This document shows, piece after piece, positions 26,929 through 31,683 of a stretch of DNA of 64,000 nucleotides. The notes beneath the pieces are model-generated. The model did no database searches and was not told the origin of the DNA. It saw only the letters and a program-made list of their open reading frames with translations. The stretch comes from Lentilactobacillus kosonis (GTDB taxonomy: Bacteria; Bacillota; Bacilli; Lactobacillales; Lactobacillaceae), in NCBI RefSeq assembly GCF_003864335.1, contig NZ_BEXA01000004.1, positions 62,001 through 126,000 on the forward strand, read 5' to 3'. The position numbers and the translations under genes were made by a program. The stretch's first letter is position 1. The number at the start of each line of letters is the position of its first letter.

Positions 26929-26937
26929 CTGTATATA

Positions 26938-27302
26938 TGGAGTCGGCGGGAGTCGAACCCGCGTCCGAGCATATCGTGACCTAGATATCTACGCTCATAG
27001 ATCTACTATTTAAAATTCGCCACTGAAAACGCCGCAAATCAAGGCACCCATCAATGACTAACCTGATTAATCTCTTCTATCTACTTCAGGTGGGAGCGAA
27101 TAGCGTGAGTCCACTAAATTTAGGACCCAGATCTAACCCGTGGACGAGGTTAGGAGGATCTACGTTAAGCGCTTATTAGGCAGCTAAAGCGTAAGAATTG
27201 TTATTATTTTTTGCAGTTATAATTTAACTGGACGGTTTAGCGTGACGCCGCACGAAGCGCAATCCAGGCTCGACCTATACCCGTCGAATCCTTAACGACC
27301 CC
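26938..27302 (-). ncRNA. ssrA: transfer-messenger RNA
   Basis: tmRNA rescues ribosomes stalled on broken mRNAs. The tRNA-like ends pair (5' GGGGTCG with 3' CGACTCC), the 5' region has the conserved GGATTCGACGGG, and the 3' T arm reads CGGGTTCGACTCCCG. The resume codon GCA at 27212-27214 starts a tag AKNNNNSYALAA ending in TAA at 27176-27178, which has the usual ALAA degradation end. CCA is not encoded. Confidence 0.97.
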
Positions 27303-27394: not shown

Positions 27395-27763
27395 TTAATA
27401 TGTTTCAGAAATTAGTTCCAAAACATGTGCCAAAATATCAGCGGGTGCTTGTTCAATTAATTCAATATTCCTATTTTCTGGATCAATTGCTCGTTCTTGG
27501 TCAGTTAAAATATATCCCTTAGTTTTAGTATCCTTCAAAGGAATATTTAACGGGAAACTCGCTTGGCGCTCTGATGAAGAAATGGCCACAATTTTGACCA
27601 TTTTTGTGTACTTATAATATTCGGCATTAGAAACTATCAAAACTGGACGGCGTCCATGCTGCTCGTGACCTAGAGTTGGATTCAAATCTGACCAACAAAT
27701 TGACCCCTGTTTAATTTCATCCCATCCCTGAGCATGATGTACTTCTTTACTGGATTCAGTCAT
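27395..27763 (-). CDS. mazF: MazF/PemK-type mRNA interferase toxin
   Basis: Toxin of a type II toxin-antitoxin pair that cleaves mRNA. 122 residues from the ATG at 27763, behind GGGGGA. The family motifs are present: GSICWSDLNPTLGHEQHGRRPVLIVSN region, and QERAID toward the C-terminus. It is preceded, after 39 bases, by the antitoxin gene, the usual order. Confidence 0.9.
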   Translation of the reverse strand: MTESSKEVHHAQGWDEIKQGSICWSDLNPTLGHEQHGRRPVLIVSNAEYYKYTKMVKIVAISSSERQASFPLNIPLKDTKTKGYILTDQERAIDPENRNIELIEQAPADILAHVLELISETY

Positions 27764-27802
27764 GTAAAATCCCCCGTTCAAAATAATTTAAGTAGTGAAA
27801 GA

Positions 27803-28066
27803 TTACAATTCTTCACGACCAATGGCATCGCCTAAATCAATCTCACGACTTTCCTGGTCATTAAAATATTCTTCAACGTCAAATCCATCAAAACGTTTCT
27901 CAAGTGGTGAGCGATGATCAGCTTTTCGAATCACAATCTCATTATTTCGAACATCGATTTCAATTTCTTCGCCCACAGGATCATCCAAACCAATCTGCTG
28001 TAACAAATCTTTTGGCAATCTGACCCCTTGAGAGTTTCCCCAACGATCAACTGTTTTCTTAATCAT
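27803..28066 (-). CDS. mazE: MazE-type antitoxin (SpoVT/AbrB fold)
   Basis: Antitoxin partner of the downstream MazF. The N-terminal swapped-hairpin domain is clear (KKTVDRWGNSQGVRLPKDLL, EIEIDVRNNEIVI) and the acidic C-terminus is the likely toxin-binding tail. 87 residues from the ATG at 28066, which follows GGAGGGG. Such pairs are autoregulated by the MazE DNA-binding domain. Confidence 0.9.
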   Translation of the reverse strand: MIKKTVDRWGNSQGVRLPKDLLQQIGLDDPVGEEIEIDVRNNEIVIRKADHRSPLEKRFDGFDVEEYFNDQESREIDLGDAIGREEL

Positions 28067-28217
28067 CTCTGCCCCTCCAATCGTTAAATACCACTTAACA
28101 CCAAAAGTATACACCAAGTATATCCAGCGAACAATTAACTTGTCTCAAATTCATAATTCAATAGTATAGTAATTATATAGCATCATTAATCATTTCTACC
28201 TTGGAGGTAACAATGCA

Positions 28218-29033: not shown

Positions 29034-30056
29034 TTACTTTTTAACTGAATTTTTAACTTGATTTTTAAAGCCTTTCATCCCGCCGACTGACTTAAACATC
29101 CGGTCGGTCTTAGCTTGCTCAATTTGGCGGCTAGACAATCCAGAGTATTGCATTTCATGCTGCAACTTCTGATAACTTGCCAATCGTTCAGCAGATAATC
29201 GGCCTGATTCAACGGCAGCTTTAACTGCACAACCAGGTTCTGCTTCATGCTGGCAATCATTAAACTTACATTGAGTTGCTAACTCAACAATATCAGCAAA
29301 CGTCTGTTCAGTAGCCGACTGGCTCACACCAACAATCCCAACCGTCCGAATGCCTGGAGTATCAATCAGGCGAGCACCACTACCTAATAAGTGCATTTTA
29401 CTACTAGTAGTCGTGTGCCGTCCCTTACCGTCATCTTCTCGAATCTTATTAGTCTTTTCAACATTCTGATTCATCAATTTATTGATAAGAGTTGATTTCC
29501 CAACGCCTGATGAACCAACGAACGCTACGTTGACACCACGAACAAGGTATTCATCAAATTTAGTTAACGAACTTATTTCATTCATGCTAGTAGCAATTAT
29601 TGGAATTCCATATGCATTAACTTCAATTTGGGATTGATAGTTCTCAAGTTGAGTATTACTAATTAAATCAGTTTTAGTTAAAACGATTACCGGATTTGCG
29701 CCACTATCCCAAACCAATGTGGTGTACCGATCAAGCCTTGCTAAATTAAAATCCTGATTTACTGACATGGTAATGAATACATAATCTAAGTTGGCAGCCA
29801 TCACTTGTTCTCGATCCTTCGAGCCATTGCTTTGACGTCTAAGAACACTATGTCTTGGTAAAATATCGGTAATTAGAACAAAGTCATTTTGCAATTCACC
29901 AATTACTTCATCGCCAACTACTGGACGCTTACCTTCATTAATCAACTGGCCAGTCAATTTGGCCATTAATTCATTATTTTGATTGTCAATTGCCTTATAG
30001 TTATCTTGAGCTTGTAAACTTACTTGATATTTATTTTCGTTATTTTTTAATCGCAT
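29034..30056 (-). CDS. rsgA: RsgA-type circularly permuted ribosome GTPase
   Basis: GTPase acting on the 30S ribosomal subunit. An N-terminal OB-fold (about 35-90) is followed by a permuted G domain: TKTD (G4), then GSSGVGKST (G1) and DTPG (G3), and a C-terminal zinc knuckle with Cys, Cys, His and Cys (CKFNDCQHEAEPGC). 340 residues. It stands alone, not in the prpC-stkP-rpe context of the usual rsgA, so it may be a second paralogue. It is preceded by a leader peptide and a predicted translational attenuator. Confidence 0.9.
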   Translation of the reverse strand: MRLKNNENKYQVSLQAQDNYKAIDNQNNELMAKLTGQLINEGKRPVVGDEVIGELQNDFVLITDILPRHSVLRRQSNGSKDREQVMAANLDYVFITMSVNQDFNLARLDRYTTLVWDSGANPVIVLTKTDLISNTQLENYQSQIEVNAYGIPIIATSMNEISSLTKFDEYLVRGVNVAFVGSSGVGKSTLINKLMNQNVEKTNKIREDDGKGRHTTTSSKMHLLGSGARLIDTPGIRTVGIVGVSQSATEQTFADIVELATQCKFNDCQHEAEPGCAVKAAVESGRLSAERLASYQKLQHEMQYSGLSSRQIEQAKTDRMFKSVGGMKGFKNQVKNSVKK

Positions 30057-30062
30057 TGTGAT

Positions 30063-30112
30063 CCTCCTAAATTTTTAATTGGGAGGCTGCCTACTAGCCT
30101 CTAAGCTAGCAC
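30063..30112 (-). promoter_or_regulatory. predicted translational attenuator of rsgA
   Basis: Four RNA segments on the minus strand: 1 (30105-30110, GCTAGC at the leader end), 2 (30093-30101, containing GAGGCTAG), 3 (30081-30088, AGCCTCCC) and 4 (30063-30068, AGGAGG, the rsgA ribosome-binding site). Pairings: 1:2 CTAGC/GCTAG, 2:3 GAGGCT/AGCCTC with a seven-base loop, 3:4 CCTCC/GGAGG. 1:2 excludes 2:3 and allows 3:4, hiding the binding site; a ribosome halted on segment 1 would favour 2:3 and free it. This is the layout of erm-type attenuators. Pairing is seen; function is inferred. Confidence 0.6.
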
Positions 30113-30139
30113 AATGCCCTTAATATTTAGTTTATTCAT
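30101..30139 (-). CDS. 12-residue leader peptide upstream of rsgA
   Basis: A short reading frame encoding MNKLNIKGIVLA with ATG at 30139, a TAG stop at 30101-30103, and an AAAGGAG site six bases before the ATG, as strong as that of any gene here. It ends 44 bases before the rsgA start. Its last codons (GTG CTA GCT) form the first arm of the attenuator. The hydrophobic end IVLA recalls, but is not identical to, known macrolide-stalling leaders. Confidence 0.65.
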   Translation of the reverse strand: MNKLNIKGIVLA

Positions 30140-30167
30140 ACAAATCTCCTTTAATTAATCTATGTTC

Positions 30168-30176
30168 ATTGTAACA
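30168..30176 (-). promoter_or_regulatory. extended -10 promoter for the rsgA leader
   Basis: TGTTACAAT on the minus strand (30168-30176) fits an extended -10 box; no good -35 is present. Transcription would start near 30161, about 20 bases before the leader ATG. Confidence 0.55.
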
Positions 30177-30259: not shown

Positions 30260-31627
30260 TTAGAATTTAGATTCACCTAGTGCGTGTTGAGCAGCCAAGT
30301 TCATCAAACTCCATTGACGGTCAAATCCAGGTTGGAAGAAGAAGTCAGCCTCAGCGAGGTCTTCTACCTTCATTTCATTTTGAATAGCTAAGGCTAAAAC
30401 GTTACCTTCAGCTGTAATATCATAAGTGGACATCACCCCACCACCTAATAGACGATGCGTTTGTGGATCAAATAATAGCTTGACATAAACTTTGGGGTTA
30501 TCCTTGCCTTCAGGAACATAGTTTGGACGCAATGTATCTTCATAGAAGCTACCAGCAACTGTAACACCATTACGTTTTGCAGAAGCTTCGTTCAAACCAC
30601 TAGTAGCAAAGTGATAATCAAAGACACTAAGAGCACTTGAACCAACCAGGCCCTTAAATGGCATAGAAGGTTGTTTTTCAAACAAGTGTTGAGTTACATA
30701 GCGCGCTTGGCGACGAGCAACTGTGGCTAAAGCAATTGGCATTTTAGCTTGGGCGGCAATTGAATAAGTCAAAGTAGCATCCCCAACTGCATATACATCT
30801 GGCAAGTTAGTTTGTAAGTATTCATTCGTTTCAATAAATCCACGATCAGTCAATTTAACAGTATCCTTTAACCAATCAGTGTTAGGTTTAACCCCAGCAG
30901 CTTGGATGACGAAATCAGCATCGAAAGTACCCTTATCAGTTGTCACACTCTTAACGGCGCCATCACCATCAAATGACTTGATAGTTGCCCCCATGACAAC
31001 GTTAATACCTTGGTCTTCCAAATGCTTATTCAAAATATCAGTCATTTCTGAATCAAGATAAGCACCTAATGGACGGTCAAGCATATCAATCAAAGTAACA
31101 TTTTTACCTGCTTTATTGCTAGCTTCAGCGGCTTCAATTCCAATGTAACCAGCACCAATTACGGTAATATTTTTAACGCTGTCATCTTCTAACTTACCTT
31201 TAATGGTCGTTGCCCAGTCGTATCCACGCATTAACGCAACGTTTCAAGATCAGTTCCTGGAACAGGCAAATTATTAGGAACCACCCCTGAACTTAAAATT
31301 AATTTGTCGTAATCGTAATCAGCAACTTCACCACTAACGGCGTCCTTAACTGTAACGGTTTTTTATCAGCGTCAATCTTGGTAACTTCGTGATTATTTAA
31401 AACATGAACTCCTTGATCAGTAAATTGCTTAGGCTCAAAGTTTCGAACATCATTAACATCGGTAACGCTATTTTCTAAGTAAAGTTCCATCCCACAAGAC
31501 ATGAATGAAACAAAATCCCCTGCTTCAAACATGGTAATATCGAGATTATCATAACGGTGAAGTAATTCTAAGATTGCCTGATGACCACCGTGTGAAGCAC
31601 CTACTACAACAACTTTAGTTTTGGCAT
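30260..31627 (-). CDS. npr: NADH peroxidase, FAD-dependent (three frameshifts)
   Basis: Reduces hydrogen peroxide to water with NADH. Matches the enterococcal Npr pattern: ASHGGHQAILELL with His13, redox Cys45 in FVSFMSCGMELYLE, then the second nucleotide site VIGAGYIGIEAAEA, AVGDATL and the C-terminal DFFFQPGFDRQW. Breaks near 31620, 31363 and 31238 each need one base added; the corrected protein is about 456 residues and starts MPKTKVVVVG at the ATG 31627 behind AGGAGGAG. A water-forming NADH oxidase is the alternative. A PerR-type box lies in its promoter. Confidence 0.88.
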
Positions 31628-31683
31628 ATAAAACTCCTCCTAATATCAATATAAATGGTGAAACTGATTCATTAACAACTTCT

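Follow-up and report, generated by a model that had tools for sequence, protein, structure and literature searches.

A probable ribosome-sensing attenuator upstream of a second, accessory rsgA gene in Lentilactobacillus kosonis and other Bacillota

What could a reading frame of 12 codons be doing directly ahead of the gene for a ribosome-associated GTPase? The question is raised by the minus strand of a 64,000-nucleotide stretch of the Lentilactobacillus kosonis genome (contig NZ_BEXA01000004.1; hereafter the window), where an RsgA-family gene, called rsgA2 here, lies behind a short leader ORF equipped with a ribosome-binding site (RBS) of its own. The first-pass annotation of this DNA had described a 12-codon leader with its own AAAGGAG site, followed by four segments able to pair 1:2, 2:3 and 3:4, the fourth being the rsgA RBS, and had compared the whole to ermC-type attenuators. 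We found the leader and all four segments in the sequence as described (Table 1). Two features were absent from that description: an extra helix, P0, which takes in the start codon of the gene, and the fact that this gene encodes the second RsgA of its genome. In ermC-type attenuators, a short leader bearing a Shine-Dalgarno (SD) sequence encodes a hydrophobic, Ile/Val-rich arrest sequence and is followed by mutually exclusive 1:2, 2:3 and 3:4 pairs, segment 4 being the RBS. At the window locus, the RBS-like segment 2 begins 13 nt past the first nucleotide of the leader's Ile codon. Leaders of relatives include MNKLNNKGIVLA, MTNNKGIVLA, MTTNNEGIVLA, MKNTVKKTSIVLA, MLTAEIVLA, and MCKREDIVR. A possible -10 element stands ahead of the leader; a consensus promoter scan listed no minus-strand promoter at this TACAAT.

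Table 1. Positions in the window of the rsgA2 gene, its leader, and the pairing elements between them
Feature	Position	Strand	Remark	Basis
Possible -10 element TACAAT	30168..30173	minus	just 5' of leader SD	putative, read directly
Leader SD AAAGGAG	30146..30152	minus	SD duplex -8.7 kcal/mol	sequence
Leader ORF MNKLNIKGIVLA-stop, 12 codons	30101..30139	minus		sequence
Helix P0, 5' arm GCATTGTG	30110..30117	minus	leader codons G-I-V; pairs with 30060..30053	MFE and centroid fold
Segment 1 CTAGC	30105..30109	minus		sequence and fold
Segment 2 GAGGCTAG	30094..30101	minus	partner is segment 1 or segment 3	fold, shuffle test
Segment 3 AGCCTCCC	30081..30088	minus	partner is segment 2 or RBS	fold, 0/100 shuffles
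Segment 4 GGAGG	30063..30067	minus	rsgA2 RBS	sequence and fold
Helix P0, 3' arm CACAATGC	30053..30060	minus	includes rsgA2 start codon	fold
rsgA2, 340 aa	29034..30056	minus	RsgA-family circularly permuted GTPase with zinc-knuckle residues	TIGR00157, PF03193, tree

The rsgA2 product scored 174.3 bits against TIGR00157 (cut-off 100) and 166.9 bits against PF03193 (cut-off 30), and both the GTPase motifs and the Cys/His zinc residues are kept in RsgA2 as invariant columns (alignment A1). A search of its own genome returned a canonical RsgA encoded elsewhere, 31% identical to RsgA2, and in a tree 44 RsgA2 and 13 RsgA1 proteins fell on the two sides of one branch with a support of 100/100. This search and the tree rule out that the gene is the housekeeping rsgA (RsgA1, the YloQ/YjeQ orthologs). 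Since the downstream gene is an RsgA by TIGR00157 and no Erm rRNA methylase, the locus was not filed as an erm leader region either. The RsgA2 profile (E 1e-60) matched 97 of 397 family genomes, 189 of 398 class genomes, and 101 of 398 genomes in the phylum sample, and this presence in only part of the genomes indicates that RsgA2 is accessory. RsgA-family matches, with the subfamilies not sorted apart, were also obtained in 184 plasmid records, and on a Lysinibacillus plasmid the RsgA copy adjoins fosM. The annotation of Lactiplantibacillus plantarum WCFS1 lists an rsgA2, lp_1687. Our own start caller assigned a TTG start codon to 101 of 136 Bacilli RsgA2 genes, mostly behind a strong SD.

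We then looked at how the window locus folds. The lowest-energy fold is a three-way junction composed of P0, 1:2, and 3:4, the last of these pairing segment 3 with the RBS. P0 joins GCAUUGUG (leader codons G-I-V) to CACAAUGC (rsgA start codon), and the start codon is buried. A 72-nt stretch that begins at the G-I-V codons and ends just beyond the rsgA start has a folding energy of -24.0 kcal/mol (z -3.41), a stability equalled by 0/200 shuffles, and a 126-nt region gave a z of -2.39 with 1/200 shuffles equally stable. The scheme in which a single segment 3 can pair either with segment 2 or with the RBS was reproduced by 0/100 shuffles of the locus. Taken singly, the 2:3 hairpin reaches -8.6 kcal/mol versus -7.6 kcal/mol for 3:4, meaning that a freed segment 2 can shift the equilibrium, albeit by a small margin. 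The RBS is hidden in one fold and free in the alternative fold, the opening predicted at the window locus being only partial. When the window was scanned for background, an SD-preceded ATG leader was present at 4 of 67 ORFs, and among these four the pairing score was -9.3 for rsgA and -5.1, -3.3, and -2.3 for the other three. No transcription terminator was called at the window locus. A gathering search of the window for known Rfam elements gave only a tmRNA and two tRNAs.

The absence from relatives of the leader ORF or of the paired segments had been named in advance as what would speak against an attenuator. For this, 206 loci were tried and 198 were placed, five being lost for want of a start and three for want of a hit. 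Fifteen RsgA1-like rows were set apart as controls and 17 further rows were removed by hand (non-Bacilli, truncated or misplaced start), including L018, L138, and L145, which do carry Ile-Val leaders. Removal of identical or too short upstream regions left 157, which were thinned to 136 non-redundant RsgA2 upstream regions. A leader was defined as an ATG ORF of 4-30 codons with a strong SD, and dinucleotide shuffles served as background. Such a leader was found in 99 of the 136 Bacilli regions versus 390 of 2720 shuffles, and the dipeptide Ile-Val was found in 44 of these 99 leaders versus 15 of the 390 shuffle leaders. Leader and Ile-Val are therefore both found across Bacilli. No leader was found in the 15 RsgA1 controls (0/15), a weak control because most of the DNA ahead of RsgA1 genes is coding. 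A slightly changed set of criteria gave the 102 leaders that were analysed further. Among them Ile-Val was encoded 48 times in the leader frame, 5 times in the +1 frame, and 0 times in the +2 frame. The Val codons of the 48 in-frame occurrences were GTA (22), GTG (12), GTC (8), and GTT (6), and this free variation indicates that the peptide is what is conserved. ATT-GTG doubles as an arm of helix P0 in the window clade; elsewhere that does not apply. The residue preceding Ile-Val was Ser in 12 cases, Glu in 8, Asp in 5, Ala in 4, Met in 4, and Gly in 3, with others besides. Listeria monocytogenes carries MAIVKMENLIINTGVFYL before its RsgA2, with the switch predicted at a later codon.

The paired segments were scored wherever the region measured 35-180 nt, which was the case for 83 of the 102 leaders. 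Segment 3 paired with both segment 2 and the RBS, with at most 5 of 100 shuffles as good, in 32 of the 83 loci; 23 of these were among the 43 loci with Ile-Val and 1 was among the 20 with ultrashort leaders. The latter (MSVVQ, MSVSR, MLFI, etc.) showed another output, a terminator preceding the gene in 24 of 25 cases (shuffles 11/125). Terminators also occurred behind 10 of 47 Ile-Val leaders (shuffles 0/235) and behind 12 of 30 other leaders (shuffles 2/150). Altogether, 76 of the 102 leaders have RBS sequestration or a terminator behind them, 2 of them both, and 26 have neither by these scores. By eye, a stretch GTGTACCC ... GGGTACC recurs between the leader, of 4-5 residues, and the terminator in L056-L080, L110-L119, and others; this stretch upstream of rsgA2 may be a separate conserved RNA.

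Where would a ribosome have to stop for the RBS to be released? Among the 23 Ile-Val loci whose segments were significant, the distance from the first Ile base to the start of segment 2 was 11-15 nt in 12 loci and 24-25 nt in 6. When random codons of the same leaders were drawn instead, 12 loci within one 5-nt window were reached in 0 of 5000 draws, and in a set thinned to 20 by removal of three near relatives, the observed 9 were reached in 11 of 5000. The distance from the leader start to segment 2 is clustered too, a fixed codon anchor giving 9 and 16 versus 12 and 18 for the Ile anchor, meaning that Ile is the better anchor although spacing is ordered relative to the leader start as well. 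We also folded the 48 Ile-Val leaders with the part covered by a ribosome masked. Mean RBS access peaked with the ribosome edge at +12 nt, at 0.31 (random codons 0.24, sd 0.02), and was lowest at +33 nt, at 0.18 (random 0.26, sd 0.03). At the window locus, RBS access rose from about 0.2 to 0.5 only. It reached 0.7 in L124, 0.5 in L007, and 0.4 in L011, with a slight rise in L006, while in the close relatives L005 and L120 masked folding gave no rise (practically none in L005). The trigger had previously been placed at a stall on IVLA-stop. This part needs refinement. The masked fold keeps the RBS closed with a ribosome at the stop codon; the opening is predicted with the leading edge +12 nt from the Ile codon, which places roughly codon 8 or 9 in the P site.

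We then turned to loci from other classes of this phylum, which had not been used to define the pattern. In this set, 66 of 69 loci were kept (L248, L274, and L293 were dropped), and near relatives were left unthinned, L228 and L229 being near-copies. A leader was present in 34 of the 66 loci (shuffles 243/1320), Ile-Val in 12 of the 34 leaders (shuffles 7/243), and significant segments in 18 of 39. The Ile-to-segment-2 distances were 12, 12, 12, 12, 12, 12, 13, and 68 nt, that is, 12-13 nt in seven of eight. Many of these leaders have 18 residues and follow M-x6-[A/V/L]-E-I-V-x3-E-V-x3, with the variants E-S-V, E-I-A, and K-I-T. At L226, a locus on a Clostridia plasmid, the leader lacks Ile-Val. 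The pairing scheme is thus found both across Bacilli and in Bacillota outside this class.

Two covariance models were built, R1 on the window clade and R2 on 16 EIV-type leaders. R1 matched 7 of 301 family genomes, with one match each, and these seven are the genomes from which it was seeded; this model therefore reaches only the window clade, and an element spread through the genome can be rejected. R2 gave 23 matches in 22 of 388 genomes, of which 18 adjoin RsgA2 loci (12 model seeds, 6 non-seeds) and five are away from RsgA2 (L309, L310, L313, L316, L318). Two of these five precede a GNAT acetyltransferase, with leaders MKKNYKMEIVY and MKKNYKSEIVR, two precede an RNHCP-domain protein (PF12647), with leaders MTKYFQEEIVR and MTKYFQSVLVR, and the fifth is not directly followed by a gene. 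This indicates that the module is portable and not confined to rsgA. In L039, too, rsgA2 is immediately preceded by an RNHCP gene, and in L319, from a Vibrio coralliilyticus plasmid, the two genes overlap. Since RNHCP turned up in a motif scan at no more than 3 of 318 loci, most of these loci being short, the link between RNHCP and rsgA2 is weak. Pair changes were counted on the 16 EIV-type relatives, the window clade not being among them (alignment A4), and not on the MAFFT alignment A2, in which the RBS was misaligned. In the 2:3 helix, 9 cells were changed on both sides versus 4.3 (sd 2.0) in shuffled alignments (12/500 as high), and in the 3:4 helix 2 cells versus 0.7 (66/500 as high). Covariation, proposed earlier as a check, thus showed a weak excess of such changes, a modest support for the pairs; the core hardly varies because it must copy the RBS.

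With a leader, exclusive pairings, a conserved Ile-Val, a fixed Ile-to-segment-2 spacing, and a separate paralog clade all seen in silico, we consider it very likely that the switch is real and is an attenuator of some ribosome-sensing kind. Folds and conservation both support the ermC-like logic first proposed. More specifically, the region is probably a translational attenuator of the accessory RsgA paralog, in which a stall at Ile-Val opens the RBS. When the leader is freely translated or untranslated, P0, 1:2, and 3:4 would form and hide both the RBS and the start codon of rsgA2. A ribosome stalled with the Gly8/Ile9 codons in the P site would cover the 3' part of the leader including segment 1, and segment 2, left free, would pair with segment 3 and release the RBS. 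The most likely cause of the stall would be a ribosome-targeting antibiotic, or a translation stress of a similar kind, acting through an [E/D/S/G]-Ile-Val arrest sequence, and we lean toward such a drug as the natural inducer. RsgA2, once induced, would serve as a translation-stress factor that acts on the 30S or 70S ribosome; for a role in protecting or rescuing ribosomes, we see the balance as even.

Arrest could also occur without any drug, the peptide sensing a general translation defect (e.g. low EF-P, a defective 30S or slow termination) and keeping RsgA2 under homeostatic control. A strict Ile-Val and a fixed distance are what an arrest peptide needs. However, the Ile codon lies anywhere from position 3 to 15 of the leaders, meaning that chain length at the predicted stall varies, and most drug-free arrest peptides are longer than such chains. 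Even though RsgA acts on the 30S decoding region, as stated in an excerpt of a review (PMC6912228), we regard this explanation as unlikely. Control by amino-acid starvation appears improbable as well. Slow decoding of Ile and Val (and Leu) would signal a branched-chain shortage and tie RsgA2 to the stringent response, and the same excerpt mentions (p)ppGpp binding by RsgA of several species (PMC6912228). The residue after Ile-Val is Leu in 10 of 48 leaders and Met in 9 of 48, but also Thr, Ala, Ser, Lys, and others, there are two regulatory codons only and no run, and the downstream genes (RsgA2, GNAT, RNHCP) are not biosynthetic. Finally, a plain RBS thermometer or constitutive hairpin with an incidental leader ORF is very improbable, since, despite a stable OFF fold and 34 of 136 relatives without a called leader, the enrichment of leader and Ile-Val, the frame specificity, and the fixed spacing are all repeated outside Bacilli.

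The proposed stall-opened attenuator of RsgA2 was then compared with known systems. Like the ermC type, the rsgA2 leader has its own SD, exclusive pairs, segment 4 as RBS, and a hydrophobic, Ile/Val-rich presumed arrest sequence; unlike it, the locus precedes the gene of an RsgA paralog instead of an rRNA methylase, carries Ile-Val behind an acidic or small residue as its motif, and has the extra start-codon helix. The further comparisons draw on excerpts of the papers cited. In Listeria monocytogenes, HflXr (lmo0762), a homolog of a ribosome-associated GTPase, is induced on stalling via a short leader ORF in the rli80 attenuator (PMC6310831). The rsgA2 gene likewise encodes a paralog of a ribosome-associated GTPase behind a short leader, with predicted stall control of comparable logic. 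In the excerpt, hflXr is controlled by transcription attenuation with an Arg-Leu-Arg motif, and resistance has been demonstrated for HflXr (PMC6310831). By contrast, rsgA2 has a sequestered RBS and Ile-Val, and a protective role of RsgA2 is presumed. In Bacillus subtilis, stalling on an upstream ORF controls the ribosome-protecting factor encoded by vmlR through transcription and translation attenuation (PMC9226507). The resemblance to rsgA2 lies in the upstream ORF and the predicted stalling control, but vmlR is an ABC-F gene with a stall at initiation, while that of rsgA2 is predicted within the leader. In Streptomyces coelicolor, one of a pair of RsgA paralogs is activated by WblC as part of the WblC/WhiB7 regulon (PMC7157823); there a transcription factor is in control, unlike at the rsgA2 leader. 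RsgA is able to dissociate 70S ribosomes according to the review excerpt (PMC6912228), and rsgA appears in a gene table from an analysis of producers of protein-synthesis inhibitors (PMC9290621). Two findings count against the proposed reading: Enterococcus faecium treated with chloramphenicol contained less of an RsgA, the copy not being stated in the excerpt (PMC12441150), and deletion of rsgA in S. aureus gave higher antimicrobial resistance, as cited there. As for the earlier statement that no attenuator of this kind has been described on an RsgA gene, the open PMC literature gave no such description, subscription journals being mostly outside that scope.

Should this reading be correct, a sizeable fraction of Bacillota genomes would encode in RsgA2 a candidate factor for antibiotic or translation stress, where annotation sees just a GTPase of ribosome assembly. 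The leader motif and its fixed spacing also provide a searchable signature for further genes under the same control, as with the GNAT and RNHCP matches. More tentatively, and with a little less than even confidence, we propose that an undescribed arrest leader, [E/D/S/G]-Ile-Val with an RBS copy 12-13 nt on, could be a portable drug- or stress-sensing switch across Bacillota, controlling RsgA2 and, elsewhere, GNAT and RNHCP genes. RsgA2 would then be an inducible ribosome-protection or rescue GTPase, and, following HflXr, a second example of a duplicated assembly or recycling GTPase brought under antibiotic control.

Other features were seen near the locus in the window. On the minus strand, a gene resembling NADH oxidase/CoA-disulfide reductase is in two pieces (30260..31231 and 31299..31649), which could reflect a sequencing error or a disrupted gene. 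A MazF-like toxin gene, with a preceding small gene that resembles by eye a MazE-type antitoxin, is also encoded on the minus strand (27395..27781, 27803..28117), and the tmRNA lies at 26935..27302.
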